From IMG/VR virus record IMGVR_UViG_3300025769_000560, positions 1 to 29,994 of that record: a stretch of DNA of 29,994 bases, one strand, 5' to 3'. The stretch comes from a virus. Below are positions 10,851 through 29,123 of the stretch, piece after piece; the stretch's first letter is position 1; the number at the start of each line of letters is the position of its first letter. Position numbers and translations under genes: made by a program. The notes below the pieces were generated by a model. It was not told the origin of the DNA. It saw nothing but the letters and a program-made list of their open reading frames with translations, and searched no databases.

Positions 10851-11468
10851 ATGGCAAGTAATGACACAGATATTACTATTTGTTCGGATGCTTTAGTTCT
10901 CTTGGGCGCACAGCCCATAACGTCCTTAACGGATGGCAGTGATCCGGCAGACGTTTGTAATCGTCTTTACCCAGATCTTAAAAATCACTTACTGACAGTT
11001 TATCCTTGGAGTTGGAGCCTTAAAAAGGTTCAACTTAGTAAAAATGCAACGGCTCCCGTTAATGAATGGGATAATGCTTTTGATCTGCCAAATGATATAA
11101 TTGGCAGTGTTATTGCTGTTTTTGATAGCAGTTCAAGCGGCATACGTCCAAGGCGCTATGGATGGGAAATCTATGGCACTCAGTTATTTACCAACTTAGA
11201 CACCATCTACATTGATTATCAGGCAACGGTTGTTGAATCCAGTATGCCAGAGTATTTCATACGTTTCTTGCGTGTGGCACTGGCCGCAGAGATTGCTATT
11301 CCAATAACGGATCAGGCAACAAAAGCACAAGATCTTCGCTTACAAGCATATGGTTCTCCAGGCGAAGCTGGTCGTGGCGGGTTGCTGCGTGAGGCAATGA
11401 ACATCGATGGGCGTGGTCAAGGTACGCAAATTGTGGAGGACTATTCTCTTATTCAGGCGAGGTACTGA
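10851..11468 (+). CDS. Tail tubular protein A (gp11-like)
   Basis: The 205-residue protein matches T7 gp11-type adaptors that form the ring between portal and nozzle. Signature-like parts are ICSDALVLLGAQPITSL near the N-terminus, LYPDLKNHLLTVYPWSWSLKK at 39-59 and FIRFLRVALAAEIAIPITDQ further on. Length is close to T7 gp11 (196 aa). GGAGG precedes the ATG. The stop shares one base region with the next start (TGATG), so the two tail genes are probably translated together. Confidence 0.85.
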   Translation: MASNDTDITICSDALVLLGAQPITSLTDGSDPADVCNRLYPDLKNHLLTVYPWSWSLKKVQLSKNATAPVNEWDNAFDLPNDIIGSVIAVFDSSSSGIRPRRYGWEIYGTQLFTNLDTIYIDYQATVVESSMPEYFIRFLRVALAAEIAIPITDQATKAQDLRLQAYGSPGEAGRGGLLREAMNIDGRGQGTQIVEDYSLIQARY

Positions 11469-14400
11469 TGAGAATTACGCAATATCAGTCTAACTTTTCT
11501 ACCGGAGAAATAGACCCCCTTCTACGGGCTAGAACAGATCTTCAACAATATCAGAATGCTTTGGAAGAAGCGACAAATGTTATCGTGCAACCTCAAGGCG
11601 GGATTTCTCGCAGAGATGGTTTAAAGTTTGTTCACAGCTTTTCAACATCGTTTACTGATTTCAAGCTGATTCCCTTTGAGTTTAGCGTAAGTGACAGCTA
11701 TCTATTGGTGTTTGTTGTTGGCCGCATTTATGTTTTCAAAAGCGGAACATTGCAGACAAACATAAACGGATCTGGCAATGATTACATCACGGCAACCGAT
11801 ATTACAGCGGCAATGCTTGATGAGCTTGAATATACGCAAGCTGTAGATACCCTAATTCTTTGCCATGAAGATCTTCAGACAAAACGCCTTGTGCGTAATT
11901 CTGACACGTCTTGGACGCTTGAGAACCTGCCTCTGACCAATCCGCCACAATATGCTTACGCGCTTGATGAGCATTCTCCTAATTTTACGATTACGCCCAG
12001 CGCAACAACTGGGAATATTACAATTACTGCATCTTCTGTGACCACTGATAACGGAACAGCACAGGCTGGTACGGCAGATACAATTACTTTGAAAACAGGT
12101 ACATCACCTTACTCATCCGATGATGATGCAAATGGTCTGTGGATAACACTTACAGCCGGAACGGGTTCGGGGCAAGAAAGATATATTTCAGATTGGGTTG
12201 CATCAACAAAGGTCGCAACTGTCTATCCCGCCTGGACAACACAACCAGATAATACAACCCAGTATAAGGTTGCAGCATTTGCGGCATCTGCAATTAACAA
12301 CTTTGCTCAAGTAGAAAATACTTTTGGCCGTGTAAAGTACATTGAATATGTCAGCGATACCATAATGAATGCTGTTGTTGAGGTTCCGTTCTTTGACACA
12401 AGCGGCGTTGTTGCTGGTAATTGGATTGGCGAATTTGGTTATGAAGATGTTTGGTCAAGCACTAGAGGATGGCCAAGATCGGCAACTTTCCATGAAGGCA
12501 GATTGTATTTTGGTGGCTCTAAGTCCAGACCAAATACCGTTTGGGGTTCGCGTGTAATTGATTACTTTAACTTTGACTCTCATACTGGATTGGATGATGA
12601 GGCTGTTGAAACGACCATTAACACAAACCAACTAAATTCGATTGTGAATATCGTATCTGGTGCGGATTTGCGTATTTTCTCAACGGGCGGTGAGTTTATT
12701 GTTGTTCAATCAGAAGATACTCCAATTACACCAAGCAATTTTTTGGTGCGGCCACAAACCCGGCTTGGTGCAAAAGCCGGTGTGCCGATTGAAGATCTAA
12801 ACGGCGCAACCATTTTTGTTCAACGCCAGGGTAAGTCAATCAATGCCTTTCAGTTTGGAAGTGAAACTAATTCTTACCAAGTGCAAAACATTTCTTTGCT
12901 ATCGTCCCATTTGCTAAATACCCCCGTAGACCTTGCGGCCAGACGTGCGTCATCTACAGATGAATCTGACAGATTATTTGTTGTGAATAGCGGTGATGGC
13001 TCAATGGCGGTGTACTCCATTTTGGTGGGTCAGAATGTTATAGCACCCAGCAAATTCACCACAGACGGAACATTTGAGGCTATAGCGGTAGAATTGCAAG
13101 ATGTTTATGTCATTGTAAAAAGAACCATCAATTCAGTAGATAATTACTTTCTTGAGGTATTTGATAGCAGTTTAACGCTAGACAGTGCAAAGACAGGCAC
13201 ATCTGCAAGCTCTGTAGACATGAGCCATCTTCTAAACAAGACTGTTAAACTTATAAGTGATGGGGATATTGAGGCGGATCAAACGGCTGCGGCAAGTCCT
13301 TTAAACTTTACGTTTGCACCAACCACCAGTTTTCAGGCTGGATTAGATTACACAGTCCAGGCAAAGACAATGCCAACGGAACCAACGCTTGCATCTGGTT
13401 CATTGCATGGAGTAAGAAAGCGGGTGGTGCAAGTTGACAGCTTGTTAGATAGCTCTCAAAATCTAAAGATAAATTCTAAGGTTGTTTCTTTTGATCGGAC
13501 AAGTAGCGCCGCCGCTCAAGTAACTATTAACAATGCAACCTATGACTCTAAATTCTTTCAAGTTCCAGACCCGTATGATAACAACGACAGTGATGCAGTA
13601 AGTTTCAGATTTAAGTCTGATGGTTCTTTGCTGTTCGTTTTGGATGATCAAATCGGTGGCGTTGGTAGCGGCTGGACAATCACACAATTCACCTTAGCAA
13701 CGCCGTGGGATATTTCTACAGCAACTAATCAAACAATTGTTGAATCTGAATCTCTTCTCGTACCAAATGTAAAGGGTTTTGACTTTAGCGCTGATGGCAC
13801 CAAGGTGTTTTATTTAGAAGAAGATAGCCAAGAAATTGTGCAATACAATTTAACTAAAGCGTGGGATTTAACCACTGGTTTAAAGGTTAATGCAAATACG
13901 TTTGATTTTTCCAGCATTGGATCGAATAACGAGCAAAGTTTTGTATTCTCCCAGAATGGTCTAAGGGCTTATATTGTTTCAGGAAGTGATGATCGAATAT
14001 ATCAACTTAATTTAACAGAAGCTTTTGATGGCTCAACATTTAGCGATGCGTCAAAAACACTAGACGTAAGTGCAAAACTTTCCTTTCCACACGGTGTTGC
14101 AATAAGTGCTGATGGAAAAAAGATATTTGTAACAGGTCGCTTGGATACAACTATTGAAGAATATACGCTTTCCACTGCATATGAGCTTGATAGCGCTTCT
14201 CATACTGCAAGCTATACAGTACCTCATGCAACCACTGAAAGCGTACACGAAATTGTTCTAAAACCAGACAATACAAGGTTCTATGTCTTAGATTCAAAAA
14301 CGGTAGGTTTTACCACTACAAATTATATTTACCAGCATACGCCAGTAACAAAGCTGTTTCCAGTATCGGAATACACTGGATTAAAAACCGCGCATGGTTT

Positions 14401-20500: not shown

Positions 20501-20757
20501 AGAAAAGCATGGCACGGGATGTGCCTTCCTCGATAAGTGCAAAGTCTGTTTCAGACATTGGTGAACCTCCTACTGAAGATATAAGCGATATTACAATAGA
20601 TATCAAGCCCGATGACTTTGATTTAGAAATTCCACTTGCATCAACGCTTGATGAAGATGGAAATGCAATTGCAGTAACAAAAACATTGCGTGATATTAAG
20701 GCTGATATCGATGCAGAGGATGCACTGATTAACCGTTTGGGGGTATGTGGTCTATGA
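17509..20757 (+). CDS. Large internal virion protein with ParB/DdrB-like and RelA/SpoT-like regions
   Basis: I start at ATG 17509, in an ATGA overlap with the previous gene; TTG 17494 is less likely. The protein has 1082 residues. Residues about 345-500 (FKEGGDEYGVTEGLQGVTEW, then FVADGHQRVGLARR) match the DdrB-like ParB-superfamily domain found in phage polyvalent proteins. Residues about 805-905 (RDSYRFKTVIDDIRDVPAIF, LVKVDTGKLFEPKEWGWRII, GQLVEWYLPIKELE, HLLFEEWRN) resemble the RelA/SpoT nucleotidyltransferase fold in layout. The first 150 residues are a typical ejection-protein start. Such proteins are thought to enter the host with DNA and act early. Both domain names are from pattern memory, the second less sure. 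A candidate nested gene lies at 19349-19600. Confidence 0.7.
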   Translation: MIQFDRSDAYDFPGMVGISEPVSDFAENFFAAQDNMRLNDQSQSKELILKDLWTPIVEEMRETFPNQGFGGRDFENPADFLGIGLGVYSSAGGPQDRYNFAVNTLLNFMNENQESLPDHLKGITVQSLEDIAKERAQAARKYAEEVGARNFTFSGTVGQFVGGVSGVIDDPINAFGIMGAASKNLWRLAFTEAAIGAGTGAIAEAGVADWYEELGYDYTYQDFLRNVAYNAVGSATFGVGIRVSADAAKKGWNAISKSGKANKNSQALADAAEAREELEADNPFTDADLPPAQAEHTSRTVSAEAAIENNTLPTMPNEATIQPSPEMIEAATDNLNGVMFSVNPRDVNVDAKRFQFKEGGDEYGVTEGLQGVTEWDPIKAGTVIFWEDVDGKIFVADGHQRVGLARRIQSQKPDEKIEIIGYKLRETDGVSAEKARVIAAMTNIAQGTGTAIDAAKVLRIEPERIAELPPRSVLVRQARDLVNLSNQAFGAIVNEVIPSNYGAVVGRLIDDPDLQDAAIAVLAKSDPANLFQAEAIVRQVREMDTVQETQVSLFGEEIITDSLFTERARVLDRTTKLLRGDKAAFESLSKNAERIEAEGNKLAKEQNQRRADQDAQAITLIQALANRKGVLSDDLSAAARTARETGNYAEAARNFADAVRRGIERGDFDGASTGDVGRAVDVAPQSRADAIEEEPTLEGFDEPTGPAAEAQTDQMAMDMFRTLDEPEQLRIESPIEEDRVDLEQIRMPIDDDLPLDQVRAQVKALTDENVPLVKDLIARIDAKFGTKSGDNIKDLAKVTQKANRPSILAKKPWHKTSHIRDSYRFKTVIDDIRDVPAIFDELLASGISLVKVDTGKLFEPKEWGWRIIAFDLRMPNGQLVEWYLPIKELEAQKKAEGHLLFEEWRNKTPEEILEQNDSYMETIRKSWNGYDQAFQSSLDRMGISREDAAASWSKAESSMLEAARKSPSSSGMITSATVRGAEIQEPSIVRMAEEPSVQKSMARDVPSSISAKSVSDIGEPPTEDISDITIDIKPDDFDLEIPLASTLDEDGNAIAVTKTLRDIKADIDAEDALINRLGVCGL
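19349..19600 (+). CDS. Candidate nested gene, 83 aa, in another frame
   Basis: An open frame lies inside the large internal virion gene. AAAGGAGAG (19331-19339) stands about 10 bases before ATG 19349. The product is basic at the start (MPKRSRSYKRLQTGK), Gln-rich in the centre and ends with a helix (LSDEELNEAILMGRQLAML). It has no known relative I can name. Other unused frames of this size exist in the window, so only the Shine-Dalgarno and sensible composition support it. Confidence 0.25.
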   Translation: MPKRSRSYKRLQTGKASSAMTSQRQQEQLEKQETMQKQPETSPMLSDEELNEAILMGRQLAMLDALSMLRRKAAQTRLKKSQL

Positions 20758-23225
20758 GTACATTTAGGCAGTGTGTTGAAGATGGTGTAAGGGCTGGTGA
20801 AATTACTCAAGCACAAGCGGATGAATATGGTAATTTGTTCGATGAATTGGTTGAGCAATACAACCAACAACTAGGACCAGGCCCAGCGCAAACAAAAGCC
20901 GGGATCGATGCAGCGGCGGCTGTTCGTAAAAAGTCTATAGAGCGCAAGCGTCAAGCAATGCTGCAAGCTATAACCTGGAAAAAGATTAGCGTGGATATGG
21001 CAAGCTATCGTAATGTTGCTGGCCAACAGAATATGAACAAAGCGGCCTTGGCTCTTTTTGAACAAGACATTAATTCAAAGTATGCAAGCATTTCGCAGCT
21101 ACAGGCAACCATTGAGCGCAGCGCTACCCGGAAGATGGATAAGTTCTTAGCAACATTCCGCCGTGATCTGCTTGGCCGTACCCGTAATAAAGCACAACTC
21201 AAAAACATGGTTAGGGAAGCATTCGGGGAAAACACAGGCGATGCGTCAGCCAGAGAATTAGCATTTGCTTGGAAGGAAGGTTCCGAATATTTACGCAAGC
21301 GTTTCAATGCGGCTGGGGGTGCCATTCCTTACCGTTTAGATTGGGGGTTGCCACAGCAACACAACACATTGAAGGTACGTGAAGCGAGTTACGAGGAGTG
21401 GCGGGAATATATCACAGCGCGTCTTGACCTGGATAAAATGAAGGACATGGAAACCGGGCTACATTTCTCGGCAGAAAAACTTGAGTTTGTTATGCGGGAT
21501 GTTCACGAGACAATCCGCACCGATGGCATGAGCAAGATTAAACCAGGCGGTCGGCCAACGGGCGGTAAGTCTTTGGCAAATAGAAATGCAGACCACCGCT
21601 TCTTGGTATTTAAAAACGCTGATGCCTGGATGGAGTATCAGGAAAAGTTTGGGAATGATAATCCCTTTGATGTGATGATGGGCCATATCAGCAATATGTC
21701 CAGGGACATTGCATTCATGGAGCGTCTGGGGCCAAACCCGATGGCGACTAAGAACTTCATTAAGCAAACCCTGGCTAAATCTGCGGCAGGGGATCAGAAG
21801 GCGGAGGATGCAGCTAGATCCACAAACAAAAAGGTGGACGAGCTTTATAACATTCTCCAGGGAACACATAATACACCGGTCAATCGCTTCTGGGCCACAA
21901 CATTCGCGGGAACCAGGCAGCTATTGCAGTCGGCACAGTTAGGAGCGGCGGCGATCTCAGCGATCACCGATGTAAACTTTAACCGCATTGCTAGGCGTAT
22001 GAATGGCTTGCCGCAAACAAAAACGCTTATGCAGTATGTAAAGTTATTGCAGCCTTTAGGTGCTGAGGAAAAGGGCAAGCTTGCAATTCGCCTAGGGCTA
22101 ACGGCGGAGGGTTGGTCTACCCTGGCGGCAGCACAGATGCGCTATGTCGGGGATATCTCTGGCCCGGAGATAACGCGCCGGGTCGCAGATTTTGTAATGA
22201 GGGCATCGCTTCTATCGCCAATGACACAAGCTGGGCGCTGGGCTTTCGGCATGGAATTTCTGGGGACGCTGGCCGATAACGTAGGCAAGTCTTTTGATGA
22301 ATTAGATCCGGTATTCCGTAAGGCTATGGAGCGTTATAATATTAACGGTGATCGTTGGGATATTATTCGGCAAACGGAGCTATACGATTACAAGGGCGCA
22401 AAGTTTTTACGGGCTGAGGATATAGAGTTTCGTGATGACATCGATCCTAGATTGGCCAGAGAATTAGCAACCGATATTATGCGGATGGTTGAGACTGAAA
22501 CAAATTTTGCAGTCCCATCAACATCAATACGTGGCCGGGCTGCACTTACTGGTGATATTCCTTCAGGTACATTTGCCGGTGAGATGGTGCGATCATTTGC
22601 CATGTATAAAAACTTTGGTGTTACTTTGGTGAATACTCACATCATGCGCGGTGCTGGTACGCCAGGCGTCAAGGGTAAGGGTCGATACTTTGCTGATCTA
22701 CTTATTAGCACGACACTCATGGGTGCATTAGCTCTTCAGCTAAAAGAAATGTCTAAGGGTCGTGATCCCAGATCCGTTGAAGATCCTGAGTTTTGGGGCG
22801 CTGCGTTCTTGCAAGGTGGCGGGTTAGGAATATATGGAGATTTTCTCTTTGCAGACTTAAACAGATTTGATCGTGGCTTGGCTGAAACTATTGCTGGTCC
22901 GGTTGTGGGTTTTGGAAACGATATCAAAAATCTTACGGCTGGGAATATTATTGAGGCGGTCAAGGGTGAAGATACAAAGGCGGCAAGTGAAATGATTAAC
23001 TTTGCTCAAAGATACACGCCGGGTGCATCGCTTTGGTACATGCGTCTTGGCTTAGAGCGGATGGTCTTTGACCAAGCGAAACTGTGGGCTGATCCTGATG
23101 CTGGCAAAAAGATCCGGCGTAATATTCGCAAGTATCAAAGAGAATATGGTCAGGATTACTGGTGGACACCTGGACAAATGCAACCGTCAAGAGGGCCAGA
23201 TTTTGACAATGTGTTTGGAAATTAG
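20754..23225 (+). CDS. Large internal virion protein (gp16-like position)
   Basis: ATG 20754 overlaps the previous stop (ATGA), giving 823 residues. It is helical, with parts I recall from the last large core protein of BPP-1-like phages and related prophages: FWATTFAGTRQLLQSAQLGA, FVMRASLLSPMTQAGRW, AMYKNFGVTLVNTHIMRG and a C-terminus RYTPGASLWYMRLGLERMVF then EYGQDYWWTPGQ. A few weakly hydrophobic segments (LLISTTLMGALALQL, about residue 655) may insert in membrane during ejection. It closes the internal-protein block; 38 bases separate it from the next gene. Confidence 0.7.
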   Translation: MSTFRQCVEDGVRAGEITQAQADEYGNLFDELVEQYNQQLGPGPAQTKAGIDAAAAVRKKSIERKRQAMLQAITWKKISVDMASYRNVAGQQNMNKAALALFEQDINSKYASISQLQATIERSATRKMDKFLATFRRDLLGRTRNKAQLKNMVREAFGENTGDASARELAFAWKEGSEYLRKRFNAAGGAIPYRLDWGLPQQHNTLKVREASYEEWREYITARLDLDKMKDMETGLHFSAEKLEFVMRDVHETIRTDGMSKIKPGGRPTGGKSLANRNADHRFLVFKNADAWMEYQEKFGNDNPFDVMMGHISNMSRDIAFMERLGPNPMATKNFIKQTLAKSAAGDQKAEDAARSTNKKVDELYNILQGTHNTPVNRFWATTFAGTRQLLQSAQLGAAAISAITDVNFNRIARRMNGLPQTKTLMQYVKLLQPLGAEEKGKLAIRLGLTAEGWSTLAAAQMRYVGDISGPEITRRVADFVMRASLLSPMTQAGRWAFGMEFLGTLADNVGKSFDELDPVFRKAMERYNINGDRWDIIRQTELYDYKGAKFLRAEDIEFRDDIDPRLARELATDIMRMVETETNFAVPSTSIRGRAALTGDIPSGTFAGEMVRSFAMYKNFGVTLVNTHIMRGAGTPGVKGKGRYFADLLISTTLMGALALQLKEMSKGRDPRSVEDPEFWGAAFLQGGGLGIYGDFLFADLNRFDRGLAETIAGPVVGFGNDIKNLTAGNIIEAVKGEDTKAASEMINFAQRYTPGASLWYMRLGLERMVFDQAKLWADPDAGKKIRRNIRKYQREYGQDYWWTPGQMQPSRGPDFDNVFGN

Positions 23226-23263: not shown

Positions 23264-23515
23264 ATGGTGAAATCAAACCTCAGAGGCAGCAACCCGGCAG
23301 ACGGTGCGGCTGCGGTAACGCCCAATGATGGCGCGGATTTAGCGTTTGTTGCAAGGGCTTTGTATGTTGGCGGTGCTGGCAATATTAAGATCGATACACC
23401 TAATGGCGATACTGTAACATTGTATGGCGCAACGGCTGGATCTGTTTTGCCAATTAGAGCAAATAGGGTTTACAGCACTGGAACAACTGCAACTAACATT
23501 GTGGCTTTATACTAA
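23264..23515 (+). CDS. Small phage structural-type protein, 83 aa
   Basis: AAAGGAG lies 8 bases before ATG 23264. The core FVARALYVGGAGNIKIDTPN and GDTVTLYGATAGSVLPIRAN followed by RVYSTGTTATNIVALY is a compact beta protein seen, from memory, in many phages and prophages close to tail-fibre genes. It could be a small tail or spike-base component. The next gene starts on its last base. Confidence 0.65.
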   Translation: MVKSNLRGSNPADGAAAVTPNDGADLAFVARALYVGGAGNIKIDTPNGDTVTLYGATAGSVLPIRANRVYSTGTTATNIVALY

Positions 23516-24435
23516 TGCAAATTTCAATCAGCACATCAATTTCTCAGCTTAAATTTGGCGCTGCTGCTGGAGCTTGGCTGCTTGATGGTGGTGTTTGGAA
23601 TGATGCAGGTGTTTGGGATGACAGTGCAACTTGGGATGATGGTGCGGTAAGTTGGACTAATCCAGATATAAATAATGCAAGCTATGACAGTGTTTTCTTT
23701 AGTGTTACCACACAAGAAAGCATTCCCGCTGGACTAATCTTCAAGCCTGATGGCACAAAGATGTATATTATTGGAACAAACGCAGATGCAGTTCTCCAAT
23801 ATGGATTAAGTACAGCATGGGATTTGTCTACAGCCTCTTATGATAGTGCCAGCGCAGATGTTTCTGGAGAAGAGGATGCGCCAAGAAGCGTTTTCTTCAA
23901 AGATGATGGTACATCATTTTATATTGTTGGAACGACTAGTGATGCTGTGTACCAATACAACATGACAACCGCATGGGATTTAAGTACCGCATCGTATGCA
24001 AGTAAGAGCGCAGATGTTTCTGGACAAGAAACTTCTCCAAGATGTGTGAGATTTAAAACAGATGGTACTTCTTTTTATGTGGCAGGTACTGCTAACGATT
24101 CAATTAGCCAATACGATATGACAACAGCTTGGGATGTTTCAACAGCTTCGTATGCTTCCAAGCAATTAGATGTTTCTGCTCAAGAAGGATCACCGTTTAC
24201 TTTTGATTTTAGTCCCAATGGAGATAAAGTTTGGTTAGTTGGCACCAGTGATACGGTGCGTGAATATACCTTGAGTACTGCTTGGGATATTAGCACAGGG
24301 TCGCATGAATCTTCAGTTTCATTTACTACATCTAATGAAGATGCAACTGCTGTATCTATGACATTTAAGTCTGATGGTTCTAAGATGTATTTGCTGGGCG
24401 CTGCCACTGACACGGTTTATCAATACTCAACATAG
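23515..24435 (+). CDS. Beta-propeller tail-fibre-region protein, 306 aa
   Basis: After a 30-residue start and a W-D-rich stretch (VWNDAGVWDDSATWDD), the protein consists of five repeats of about 46-50 residues. Each has F(K/S)xDGxxxYxxGTxxDxVxQYxLSTAWDxSTASY; the cores are FKPDGTKMYIIG, FKDDGTSFYIVG, FKTDGTSFYVAG, FSPNGDKVWLVG and FKSDGSKMYLLG. This is a propeller-type repeat. The same domain, starting NNA(S/T)YDS-(V/K)FF, is inserted in the tail nozzle protein. Position between core proteins and tail fibre suggests an adhesin or a fibre adaptor. The start overlaps the previous stop (TAATG). Confidence 0.7.
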   Translation: MQISISTSISQLKFGAAAGAWLLDGGVWNDAGVWDDSATWDDGAVSWTNPDINNASYDSVFFSVTTQESIPAGLIFKPDGTKMYIIGTNADAVLQYGLSTAWDLSTASYDSASADVSGEEDAPRSVFFKDDGTSFYIVGTTSDAVYQYNMTTAWDLSTASYASKSADVSGQETSPRCVRFKTDGTSFYVAGTANDSISQYDMTTAWDVSTASYASKQLDVSAQEGSPFTFDFSPNGDKVWLVGTSDTVREYTLSTAWDISTGSHESSVSFTTSNEDATAVSMTFKSDGSKMYLLGAATDTVYQYST

Positions 24436-24445
24436 GAGCTAAGAG

Positions 24446-25672
24446 ATGGGTACATTTAATGATGGCGATAGCGGCTCTTCGATCCGAACAAAGCTAAACA
24501 CCGCTATTCAAAAGACAGAAGGCACAAGCGCAATCAGCACAATTGATGTTGATGGTGGTGCTATTGATGGCGTTACGCTTGGAACAAACAGTGCGGTAAC
24601 AGAAGCGCAAGTTGATAACATTAACATTAACGGAAATACTATCTCAAGCACAGATACCAATGGCGATGTTACGATTGATCCAAATGGTAGTGGTGATGTT
24701 AATATCGGCAACTTTAAGTTTGATGCAGACCAGACTGTAGGCGCTGGGCAAGACAACTATGTTTTAACTTACGACAATGCTGGTGGTAAGATTAGCTTAG
24801 AGGCTGCTTCTGGTGGTGCTTCTTTATCTCTATACGCTGAAAATGCTAGTGGTGAAACAACCCCAACTGCTACAGGCACAAATGCTGTTGCGGTCGGCAA
24901 TGCGGCGGTTTCGGCTGGTACGGATTCCGTTGCATTAGGAAACTCAAGGGCTGGTGGAACAGATTCTTTTGCTGCGGTAATTAATAATAATACCAGTTCA
25001 TTTGGCGCAACACAAAGTTCTTCAATAGCAATTGGTAATAACGCTAAAGGCACAGGTGTATTTGGAACGTCAATTGGATACAATACTGTTGCCAGTGCGG
25101 GAAATGCTGTTTCTGTGGGCCGAAGTGCTTCAGCAACAGGCAATCAATCCGCAGCATTTGGTTATCAGCCTCAAGCATCAGGAGAAAGATCAACTGCTTT
25201 CGGAGATAGTGCAAAAGCACAACTTCTTGGAAAGCTTGCTTTTGCTGGAAAGCAACTTGGTTCATCATCAGTATATGCCCAACAGGGTCTTTATATATTA
25301 ATGGCACAAACATCAGATGCAACTGCAACTGCTTTAACCACTGATAATTCGACTGCTGGAACAACTAACCAGATTGTTTTACCTAATAATAGCGCTCACT
25401 CTTTTCATGGTACTATTGTGGCTAGAGAACAAGCATCTTCTGGTACTGATTGTGCTGGTTGGGAAATAAAAGGTCTGATTAGGCGAGAGGGTTCTGCTTC
25501 TACTGCAACATTAATTGCATCAACCGTAAGTGCAATTGATAATACACCTTCATGGGGCATGGCTTTATCTGCTGATATAACAAATGGTTCCCTTAAAATC
25601 GAAGCTACTGGTGCAGCATCTACAAATATAAGGTGGATTGCTACAATTCACACCTCTGAAGTGAGTTACTAA
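24446..25672 (+). CDS. Tail fibre with YadA-like head repeats
   Basis: The 408-residue protein starts MGTFNDGDSGSSIRTKLNTA, a common attachment end of marine phage fibres. Repeats DGDVTIDPNGSGDVNIG (about 75-92) give a beta-strand shaft. Residues about 145-257 are YadA-head-like 14-residue repeats (NAVAVGNAAVSAG, SSIAIGNNAKGTG, NAVSVGRSASATG, QSAAFGYQPQASG, RSTAFGDSAKA), which form a trimeric left-handed beta-roll. The last 150 residues (LYILMAQTSDATATALTTDN through IRWIATIHTSEVSY) form the tip I recall from marine phage and cyanophage fibres. It probably binds the host receptor. Confidence 0.8.
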   Translation: MGTFNDGDSGSSIRTKLNTAIQKTEGTSAISTIDVDGGAIDGVTLGTNSAVTEAQVDNININGNTISSTDTNGDVTIDPNGSGDVNIGNFKFDADQTVGAGQDNYVLTYDNAGGKISLEAASGGASLSLYAENASGETTPTATGTNAVAVGNAAVSAGTDSVALGNSRAGGTDSFAAVINNNTSSFGATQSSSIAIGNNAKGTGVFGTSIGYNTVASAGNAVSVGRSASATGNQSAAFGYQPQASGERSTAFGDSAKAQLLGKLAFAGKQLGSSSVYAQQGLYILMAQTSDATATALTTDNSTAGTTNQIVLPNNSAHSFHGTIVAREQASSGTDCAGWEIKGLIRREGSASTATLIASTVSAIDNTPSWGMALSADITNGSLKIEATGAASTNIRWIATIHTSEVSY

Positions 25673-26857: not shown

Positions 26858-26922
26858 GTGATGATCTGGTGAAGCGGCTGCGTGATTGCGCCATCGCAGG
26901 AGATATCGGATGCAAGGAATAA
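26854..26922 (+). CDS. 22-aa leader peptide before the methyltransferase
   Basis: A strong AGGAGAGG (26843-26850) lies just before ATG 26854. The peptide MSDDLVKRLRDCAIAGDIGC-KE resembles the first residues of Ea22-like phage proteins (DDLVxRLRD), but ends after 22 codons. It overlaps the methyltransferase start by 13 bases. It may be a remnant of a longer gene or a coupling leader. Confidence 0.45.
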   Translation: MSDDLVKRLRDCAIAGDIGCKE

Positions 26923-27695
26923 ATCTTATGCAAGGCGACTGCCTTGAGAGAATAAAAGAGATAAAGGATGGATCAGTGGACATGGTTTTGACCAGCCCGC
27001 CGTATAACATTGGCAAGGCTTACGAGACTGTGGTTCCGCTTCGTGAATATGTTGACTGGCAGAGCCGCATCATAAGAGCTGTTTCGTCTAAACTTAAAAA
27101 CGGCGGTAGTATTTGCTGGCAAATTGGCAACGCTGTGATTGATGGAGCTGTTTACCCAATTGATTGTTTACTGTTTAGCGCATTCATTGACGCTGGGTTG
27201 ACGCCACGAAACCGCATTGTGTGGACGTTCGGACATGGCCTTCACTGCAAACGTCGTTTTTCTGGAAGACATGAAACCATCCTGTGGTTTACGAAAGGGA
27301 ATGACTACACGTTCAACCTAGATGCTGTCAGGGTTCCATCAAAGTATCCGCAGAAGAAATACTACAAAGGCCCCAAAAAAGGGATGGTGTCCAGCAATCC
27401 TCTTGGAAAAAATCCAGAGGATGTTTGGGCAATATCAAACGTAAAGCACAATCACCCTGAAAAAACGGAGCATCCATGCCAATATCCAGAGCATCTATGT
27501 GATAGGCTTGTTCTGGCGTTGACAAACAAGAATGATACAGTCCTTGACCCATTTATGGGTAGTGGCACGACAGGCGTTTCCTCAAAGAACCTGAGCCGTT
27601 CTTTCATAGGCATTGAATTGGATGAAAGGTATTTAAGAATTGCTCAAGACCGCATCATGCGCTTTCCCGATGATCCGACTAACGACGATGCTTGA
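26910..27695 (+). CDS. Beta-class DNA methyltransferase (N6-adenine or N4-cytosine)
   Basis: ATG 26910 follows CAGGAGA at 8 bases. In the 261-residue protein the catalytic motif TSPPYN (28-33) comes before the S-adenosylmethionine-binding DPFMGSGTTG (213-222) and FIGIELDERYLRIAQDR; this order defines the beta class. The variable region between (FSGRHETILWFTKGNDYTFN, SKYPQKKYYKGPKKG) holds target recognition. The SPPY form allows either N4-cytosine or N6-adenine methylation. No restriction partner is next to it, so it is an orphan that probably protects phage DNA or changes gene regulation. Direct repeats at both ends suggest cassette insertion into the lysis region. Confidence 0.88.
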   Translation: MQGINLMQGDCLERIKEIKDGSVDMVLTSPPYNIGKAYETVVPLREYVDWQSRIIRAVSSKLKNGGSICWQIGNAVIDGAVYPIDCLLFSAFIDAGLTPRNRIVWTFGHGLHCKRRFSGRHETILWFTKGNDYTFNLDAVRVPSKYPQKKYYKGPKKGMVSSNPLGKNPEDVWAISNVKHNHPEKTEHPCQYPEHLCDRLVLALTNKNDTVLDPFMGSGTTGVSSKNLSRSFIGIELDERYLRIAQDRIMRFPDDPTNDDA

Positions 27696-28261: not shown

Positions 28262-28650
28262 TCCAAGCATTGATAGGACCGATTGCTGAGTTGGCTGGTG
28301 GCTGGTTGAAAGGCAAGGCGGATGCAAATGCGGCGGCTGCTAATTTAAAGTTGGTTGAGGCAGAGGCAAAAGCCACCATAATGAAGAACGCTGCTACAAG
28401 CGAAAGTGATTGGGAACGCTTGATGGCGCAGGGTTCTCAGAATAGCTGGAAAGATGAGTGGCTTACTATCTTATTTTCTATTCCTCTTATTCTTTGTTTC
28501 TTGCCATTTGATTGGGCGGATCGTGCTGTGCAGAATGGTTTTGCAGCATTGGAATCCATGCCTGATTGGTATCAGTACACGCTAGGCATAATTGTTGCTG
28601 CAAGCTTTGGTGTTCGATCAGCAACTAAATTTTTCGGAGGGAAGAAATGA
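28258..28650 (+). CDS. 3TM holin, GTA type
   Basis: The 130-residue protein has an Ala-rich start (residues 1-55), then SSWKDEWLTILFSIPLILCF-type span (about 66-84), FDWADRAVQNGFAALESMPDWYQY-type loop, and a last span (LGIIVAASFGVRSATKFF). This pattern matches the holin family named from gene transfer agents of Alphaproteobacteria (GTA_holin_3TM). It lies directly before the endolysin with an ATGA overlap. It supports an alphaproteobacterial host. Confidence 0.75.
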   Translation: MIQALIGPIAELAGGWLKGKADANAAAANLKLVEAEAKATIMKNAATSESDWERLMAQGSQNSWKDEWLTILFSIPLILCFLPFDWADRAVQNGFAALESMPDWYQYTLGIIVAASFGVRSATKFFGGKK

Positions 28651-29123
28651 GCTATAAACTAGGAAAGCGCAGCTTAGAAAGGCTGGAAGGTGTTGACGAG
28701 CGGATGCAATCAGTCGTCCGGTACGCCATATCGGTGACAAAGCAAGATTTCTCTGTGATCTGTGGACTCAGAACCATCGAAGAACAGAGGGCGCTTGTTG
28801 CCAAGGGCGCAAGTCAAACCATGAAGTCAAAGCATCTTGATGGATTGGCTGTTGACCTTATGGCATATGTCGATGGTCAGGGTGGCCGCTGGGAATTAAA
28901 TCTGTATGACGAGATTGCAGACGCAATGGCCGAGGGTGCAAGAGCAATTGATGTTGGTATTTGCTGGGGTGCTGCTTGGTCAACTGCATCTTTGCCATAC
29001 CCTATGGATATGCGGCGATGGAATGGCACAATGGAAGATGCCATGAACGCATATATAGATAAAAAACGCGATATGAAAAAACGCGCATTTATTGATGCCC
29101 CTCATTTTGAATTGATAGTCTGA
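28647..29123 (+). CDS. Endolysin, M15 (VanY/L-alanyl-D-glutamate) peptidase
   Basis: The 158-residue zinc peptidase cuts peptide cross-links of peptidoglycan at lysis, as in T5 and other phages. The metal ligands are visible: H63 and D70 in SKHLDGLAVDLMAY and H153 in DAPHFEL. The substrate-side sequence CGLRTIEEQRALVAKGASQT is also typical. There is no signal peptide, so a holin must release it. The start overlaps the holin stop (ATGA). Confidence 0.9.
   Translation: MSYKLGKRSLERLEGVDERMQSVVRYAISVTKQDFSVICGLRTIEEQRALVAKGASQTMKSKHLDGLAVDLMAYVDGQGGRWELNLYDEIADAMAEGARAIDVGICWGAAWSTASLPYPMDMRRWNGTMEDAMNAYIDKKRDMKKRAFIDAPHFELIV

Follow-up and report, generated by a model that had tools for sequence, protein, structure and literature searches.

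A second, five-bladed propeller predicted near the end of a podovirus tail nozzle, and its exchange as a cassette among related phages

The tail nozzle encoded in a 29,994 nt stretch of viral DNA (IMG/VR record IMGVR_UViG_3300025769_000560, positions 1–29,994; called the window here) carries a complete second propeller in its C-terminal part, as judged by structure modeling. This propeller is five-bladed and its two ends are adjacent. Comparisons of related nozzle sequences indicate that it has been exchanged as a cassette. The role proposed for it is that of an accessory domain that would bind the host surface and is displayed beside the fibre attachment zone; a probability of about 0.5 is assigned to this reading. 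The features discussed are listed in Table 1.

Table 1. Positions of the nozzle, its insert and the fibre locus in the window
Feature	Position	Strand	Evidence
Adaptor (tail tubular protein A)	10851..11468	+	phrog_394, E 1e-34
Tail nozzle (tail tubular protein B) with its insert, 1010 aa	11468..14500	+	phrog_376, E 7e-113; fold matches Z 20-28 to 8ck1, 9efk and T7 gp12 chains
Site 1, empty in the window; blade-1 hairpin of the nozzle's own propeller	13142..13147 (approximate)	+	L028, L047 and L247 carry a propeller of ~260 aa
Site 2, empty in the window; fibre-dock region	13286..13297 (approximate)	+	112-117 aa domain present in 15/80 near relatives
Site-3 insert, residues 677-958, missing in relatives without an insert	13496..14341	+	Alignment with 20 relatives; BLAST of body, insert and C-terminus
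N-terminal closing strand, outermost strand of blade 5, residues 692-699	13541..13564	+	AlphaFold of insert
Propeller blade 1	13589..13750	+	AlphaFold of insert
Propeller blade 2	13769..13906	+	AlphaFold of insert
Propeller blade 3	13931..14065	+	AlphaFold of insert
Propeller blade 4	14087..14218	+	AlphaFold of insert
Propeller blade 5, with three strands here and the closing strand at 13541-13564	14240..14338	+	AlphaFold of insert
Nozzle C-terminus past the insert; last 51 residues identical in L003	14342..14497	+	BLAST, divergence comparison
826-aa virion protein gene directly 5' of the fibre locus	20745..23225	+	phrog_684, E 3e-175
Small fibre-locus protein of 83 aa, at the position that the fibre-anchor gene has in relatives without an insert	23264..23515	+	phrog_12296 tail fiber protein, E 5e-24
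Stand-alone propeller protein of 306 aa with five repeats, in the fibre locus	23515..24435	+	33% identity to nozzle insert, E 2.6e-30
Fibre-like protein with YadA head repeats	24446..25672	+	PF05658, E 1e-10

The nozzle gene is a single uninterrupted frame and its PHROG match is annotated as a tail protein. It is directly downstream of the adaptor gene, which ends at the nozzle start. Sequence matches in the PDB are to the Carin1 tail nozzle (8ck1, E 1e-37, residues 6–567) and to LME-1 orf18 (9efk, E 7e-23). The AlphaFold model of the whole nozzle is middling, with a mean pLDDT of 63.6 and values under 50 at residues 321–478, yet its best fold matches over residues 1–1010 are the nozzles of Carin1 (8ck1; Z 27.7, rmsd 8.1, 488 aligned), LME-1 (9efk; Z 25.6, rmsd 7.8, 503 aligned) and T7 (6r21; Z 21.6, rmsd 3.7, 377 aligned). 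The order and fold of the whole body are common to T7 gp12, Carin1 gp36, LME-1 orf18 and the window nozzle. Because of these whole-length matches the protein is, by its modeled fold, a T7 gp12-type podovirus tail nozzle with both the N- and the C-terminal parts present. By analogy with the family it presumably forms the tail channel as a hexamer. There is no match at E 0.1 to Pfam PF25675 (Phage_nozzle), a model of the T7 subgroup that T7 gp12 itself matches. The nozzle of cyanophage A-4L is also large (1015 aa), with its extra residues scattered over several places of a weak alignment. Elsewhere in the window are two DNA methyltransferase genes, one of the C5-cytosine type (734–1891; PF00145, E 4e-38) and one of the N6/N4 type (26886–27695; PF01555, E 1e-57), and a possible endolysin of the M15 peptidase type (28647–29123; PF13539, E 4e-5, just under the cut-off).

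In insert-less relatives with about 70–77% body identity, the nozzle body is joined to the last 45–50 residues by 25–29 residues. The same junction is 298 residues in the window, as measured on the near-identical copy L002. Alignment assigns 279 extra residues to the insert, and these are missing from the aligned insert-less relatives, in agreement with the insertion near the nozzle end that was proposed in a first-pass annotation of the sequence. That annotation had placed the insert at 13520–14345 (residues 685–960); the insert itself stands, with the borders moved by alignment to those in Table 1. The usual nozzle C-terminal part, VSEYTGLKTAHG and QTEPLAMTVLGLEY, is found after residue 960, as had been described.

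The five propeller-like repeats seen at first reading are confirmed by repeat scores and by modeling. The mean pairwise local score of the repeats is 36.8, compared with 20.9 (sd 1.3) for shuffled sequences, and 0/1000 shuffles reach 36.8. AlphaFold modeling of the insert alone with 26 relatives displays exactly 20 strands in five four-stranded blades (pLDDT 89.1, pTM 0.90). The predicted closure is of the velcro type, in which the N-terminal strand completes blade 5. The insert begins and ends on adjacent strands, an arrangement well suited to a domain placed in a loop. T7 gp12 has a seven-bladed central propeller of its own, according to PMC6702177. The repeats are not this central propeller, since the body of the window protein matches gp12-type nozzles that have their own propeller and the insert is missing from relatives. 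A chimeric assembly is also ruled out, since L003 comes from another metagenome and has the same architecture at 88.9% DNA identity.

A set of 163 nozzle ORFs was collected, consisting of 80 near relatives, 80 MEP301-like sequences, MEP301, HTVC024P and Carin1. The insert is matched in four of them (L002, L003, L028 and L047), with L002 nearly identical to the window. The other 159, a few of which are fragments, show no match; the repeats are therefore not carried by all relatives as part of the normal nozzle fold. All 80 HTVC024P-type nozzles are too short for the insert, 79 of them being closed ORFs of 669–680 codons from stop to stop. A fifth nozzle with a propeller, L247, was found outside the 163 ORFs. 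A search with the insert alone matched L002 only, and a scan of genome contigs gave five distant loci, located in MAGs, and found no host. In a tree of nozzle bodies, the nozzles with an insert at any site form one clade of 19 rows (SH-aLRT 100) that is nested among insert-less nozzles and represents one change. The tree includes five of the 80 MEP301-like loci; the fragments L062 and L074 and the distant rows L244, L245 and L337–L341 are not among its rows. Gain of inserts is the simplest reading of this single change on the sequence tree.

Three insertion sites are found in the C-terminal third of the nozzle: the blade-1 hairpin, the fibre-dock region and a platform loop. Among the 80 near relatives 18 have inserts, and two of the 80, the fragments L062 and L074, stop before the sites. 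Site 1 (after L013 residue 558) has a propeller of 257–263 aa in L028 and L047, and L247 has a propeller there as well. Site 2 (after L013 residue 607) has a domain of 112–117 aa in L007–L012, L015, L016, L028, L035, L047, L058, L066, L078 and L079, where 11 of the 15 assignments are by alignment and those of L009, L010, L012 and L015 are by gap length. Site 3 (after L013 residue 683) has the propeller in L002, L003 and the window, and a 123-residue domain in L075 (4001–6598). This domain of L075 is a relative of the beta domain that L028 has at site 2 (36% over 69 residues, E 3e-8). Each domain type is thus present at two sites, the propeller at sites 1 and 3 and the smaller beta domain at sites 2 and 3. 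A single clade of site-1 and site-3 propellers is rejected (AU p 0.027), and the site-1 propellers group with stand-alone proteins (97/88). It is likely from these trees that propellers entered sites 1 and 3 independently, although the long branch of site 3 calls for caution.

The sites were placed on the nozzle structure by profile alignment to T7 gp12 and not by coordinates, because the whole-nozzle AlphaFold model is weak. The profile of the insert-less family aligns end to end with T7 gp12 (3–726 to 4–785), with a weak significance of E 0.0014. Carin1, PS25B.1 and 1.021.C were rows of the profile, so that only the T7 and A-4L E-values are independent and the Carin1 value of 3e-143 is circular. 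T7 residue C554, assigned to blade 1 in PMC6702177, falls just before site 1 by our own residue count, and site 1 is therefore taken as the blade-1 hairpin. By the same alignment (T7 E 0.0014), site 2 is between the propeller and the platform, a region called the fibre dock in T7. This weak alignment (E 0.0014) puts site 3, with the insert of the window, in the platform region and sites 1 and 2 in the fibre-holding region. In the T7, Carin1 and PS25B.1 nozzles the extra residues near site 3 number about a dozen at most. The Carin1 nozzle (L245 3962–6451) has an extra stretch of 83 residues after L013 residue 580, between sites 1 and 2. The inserts thus appear to lie in the fibre-holding third of the nozzle, away from the tip, and would point outward.

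These positions bear on an alternative in which the insert is a docking module. It would hold the non-standard fibre or spike proteins (the 83-aa, stand-alone propeller and YadA-type proteins) that replace the usual fibre, by propeller–propeller or propeller–peptide contact. In its favour, the alignment to T7 gp12 places site 1 at the blade-1 hairpin and site 2 at the fibre dock. PMC9509320 describes the dock loop for the short fibres of SU10 as an extension of blade 1 of nozzle gp17. The SU10 nozzle likewise has a functional extra element in its C-terminal part, at a place that matches site 1 by the T7 alignment. The likeness is drawn from the published description, and the element in SU10 is a dock loop whereas that in the window is a folded propeller. 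In P-SCSP1u the fibres are described as in contact with both the platform and the docks (PMC10575957). The first-pass annotation had called the position an unusual site for a host-range module. A receptor-binding domain is indeed unusual there, whereas hardware for host interaction is not, since site 3, as aligned to T7 gp12, adjoins the known fibre-holding zone described in PMC6702177 and PMC9509320.

The fibre locus provides a further comparison. In insert-less phages the gene immediately after the 826-aa virion gene encodes a fibre starting with MADIAINPVTRRVQFTGNTGTGPFAFTFNIL or a similar sequence, with a match to phrog_1640 (tail protein) over residues 10–123. In insert-bearing phages the gene at this place encodes the 83-aa phrog_12296 protein, or another small protein in G006 and G007. 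The replacement in the latter two records (L353, L354) is a second type, a protein of ~123–130 aa starting with MATLADRVYDNGL, and the fibre gene that follows it differs. The anchor fibre is present in 29 of 37 insert-less records (22/30 near relatives and 7/7 of the MEP301 group) versus 0 of 12 insert-bearing records. In the eight insert-less records without an anchor, the preceding 826-aa-type gene is absent (seven) or cut (one); they are counted as uninformative since they have no complete copy of that gene. Four of the 12 insert-bearing records are likewise uninformative and eight reach the fibre locus, with G011 counted on a cut 83-aa gene at the contig start. The window is the ninth informative insert-bearing case, as its ORFs have no match to the anchor fibre. 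The fibre-anchor gene is thus kept in 0/9 informative insert-bearing cases versus 29/29 insert-less ones. One insert-less record, G036, has the anchor and also a weak match to the 83-aa protein in a longer frame (30%, E 1.8e-4).

The association has a p of 6e-9 when relatedness is ignored. When relatedness is taken into account there are three pairs on supported branches (sign test p 0.25), and on the nozzle tree there is a single change. The gene preceding the fibre locus crosses the two classes: that of insert-less G013 is 91% identical to the window gene, and insert-bearing G005 and G048 have the other type (27–28%). The two types of the 826-aa virion gene are ~27% identical and are exchanged between phages independently of nozzle type. 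In a tree of this gene the nozzle class changes four times, each time together with the fibre class. The linkage between nozzle inserts and fibre locus is therefore consistent but suggestive and not proven, as it represents about four independent switches.

The presence of the other fibre locus in 9/9 informative insert-bearing cases is in keeping with docking. However, the 83-aa protein is also found beside propeller-less nozzles in G005, G009, G010 and G048 (the last with the 843-aa nozzle L066), so that docking of this type of fibre locus cannot need the propeller. The propeller is also present at two different sites in relatives, which is ill suited to one precise geometry. Docking by the propeller is considered doubtful; the site-2 domains could serve as docks.

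Divergence within the gene is very uneven. Between the window and L003 there are differences at 29/660 residues in the body, 75/270 in the propeller and 0/51 in the C-terminus, and the dS values are 0.21 for the body, 1.04 for the insert and 0 for the C-terminus. The pattern is reversed between L028 and L247, with a dS of 0.35 in the body and 0.018 in the propeller. L047 (1408–4719) and L009 (1661–4198) have a DNA identity of 93% as far as base 1622 and of 96% over the last 318 bases, and nothing aligns in the middle block with sites 1 and 2 (1375 vs 601 bases). Ordinary fast evolution of the insert is ruled out, since a dS fivefold higher than in the body requires exchange. Synonymous depth that differs, in either direction, between adjoining parts of one gene means that the domain has recombined. 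These sequence comparisons show that the propeller is exchanged as a cassette. Domain shuffling is described for neck and receptor-binding proteins in PMC10684548, where, as in the window nozzle, a near-identical scaffold carries exchanged host-contact domains; the words nozzle, propeller and tail tubular are absent from that paper. A pairwise dN/dS of ~0.19 gives no support for positive selection on the insert.

The loop differences between the window and L003 are concentrated on one face of the propeller, with 28/57 positions on that face and 6/63 on the opposite one (p 1.6e-6). Other strand limits give similar counts of 30/59 and 7/62. The skew is also present in 25 other family members, with a mean entropy of 2.12 vs 0.78 bits. 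The variable face fits a binding face, but as the skew is family-wide it may instead reflect a structural motif on the conserved face.

The insert belongs to a family of propellers found as stand-alone phage proteins. It has 29–34% identity to 23 aligned stand-alone members, with E-values down to 7e-33, and is matched in 10 of 50,697 phage records. At least 593 confirmed stretches in IMG/VR match the stand-alone propeller of the window. Lentibacter phage ICBM2, Roseobacter CRP phages and Synechococcus phage S-SKS1 have stand-alone propellers of the same family as the insert. In ICBM2, the one record opened, the propeller is a separate gene between annotated tail assembly chaperone genes, unlike the nozzle insert of the window, and the BFVD model of the ICBM2 protein matches the insert (E 1.3e-21). 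Among 33 records, which are partial, nine have a propeller: it is in the nozzle of L003, L028, L047 and L247, and in separate genes in insert-bearing G005, G007, G009, G010 and G011. None was found in the partial records of 14 insert-less near relatives, seven members of the MEP301 group and insert-bearing G006, G008 and G012. The window has both the nozzle propeller and a stand-alone propeller gene. G005 has three propeller domains in its fibre locus.

Propellers of this form are known from receptor-binding proteins. The phi11 RBP (gp45) is described in PMC4901313 as a five-bladed propeller with four-stranded blades, closure by an N-terminal strand and a proposed GlcNAc pocket. The five-bladed propeller is common to Staphylococcus phages phi11 and P68 and the window insert. 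The P68 tail fibre matches the insert with Z 18.2 and an rmsd of 4.3 over 248 residues at 9% identity. In phi11 and P68, however, the propellers are in separate fibre or RBP proteins (a trimer with a stem in phi11), whereas that of the window is internal to the 1010-aa nozzle frame. A lactonase, gluconolactonase or glycosidase-like enzyme domain that acts on the host envelope would be in accord with weak Pfam matches (SGL and Lactonase, with SGL and Arylesterase below the cut-off) and with fold matches to GH62 arabinofuranosidase and glutaminyl cyclase (Z 19), which score as high as P68. The identity to those enzymes is only 7–13% and the closest sequence profile is that of an archaeal surface-layer propeller (1l0q, E 9e-16), and an enzyme is very improbable.

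The insert could also be a neutral or stabilising decoration that is tolerated in a surface loop, mainly strengthens the tail, or represents mosaicism with no binding role. Domain shuffling is common in phage structural proteins, as described in PMC10684548, insert-less relatives are abundant and the dN/dS of the insert is well under 1, all of which would be expected of a decoration. It would not account for the confinement of inserts to three sites in the fibre-dock and platform third, for the recurrence of a single propeller family whose other known members are stand-alone phage proteins, or for the linkage to fibre type. Decoration is considered unlikely.

The original suggestion of a receptor-binding or docking domain has indirect support from the stand-alone phage kin, the P68 fold match, the variable loops on one face, the cassette exchange and the fibre linkage. 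An accessory host-surface-binding domain fits best in view of the variable face, the exchange, the stand-alone kin and the phi11/P68 propeller precedent. In the proposed mechanism a propeller would project laterally from the platform on each of the presumably six nozzle subunits, close to where the fibres attach. The propeller would act as an accessory adsorption domain and bind a host-surface molecule, probably a glycan, with its variable-face loops. Loops of the nozzle may have become free for such domains once the lineage had replaced the fibre-anchor gene found in its relatives by a different fibre locus. The main point against host-surface binding is that in T7 the platform lies at the end of the nozzle nearest the capsid, and by analogy the domain could sit too far back to touch a receptor. 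A tentative extension is that the nozzle itself has become a receptor-binding organ, in which the anchored fibre was given up, three loops became plug-in sites for binding domains from the phage propeller pool, and host range would change by domain exchange while the rest of the DNA-injection machine stays conserved.

Each of the elements, nozzle, phage propeller and domain shuffling, is known already. No description of a propeller inserted in a nozzle was found in the titles and abstracts searched in the open-access literature, and the same searches gave no precedent for three interchangeable nozzle sites or for their linkage to fibre class. The nozzle is regarded as conserved injection hardware, and host range is ascribed to fibres and spikes. 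In the window a domain of a stand-alone phage family is inside the nozzle, the sites are filled differently or are empty in close relatives, and the choice tracks the type of fibre locus. L047 and L009, with flanks that are 93–96% identical, represent a natural with/without pair in which the tolerance and use of cargo domains by a podovirus tail could be studied. Should the binding role prove true, host-range prediction from fibre genes only would miss part of the determinant in these marine phages.
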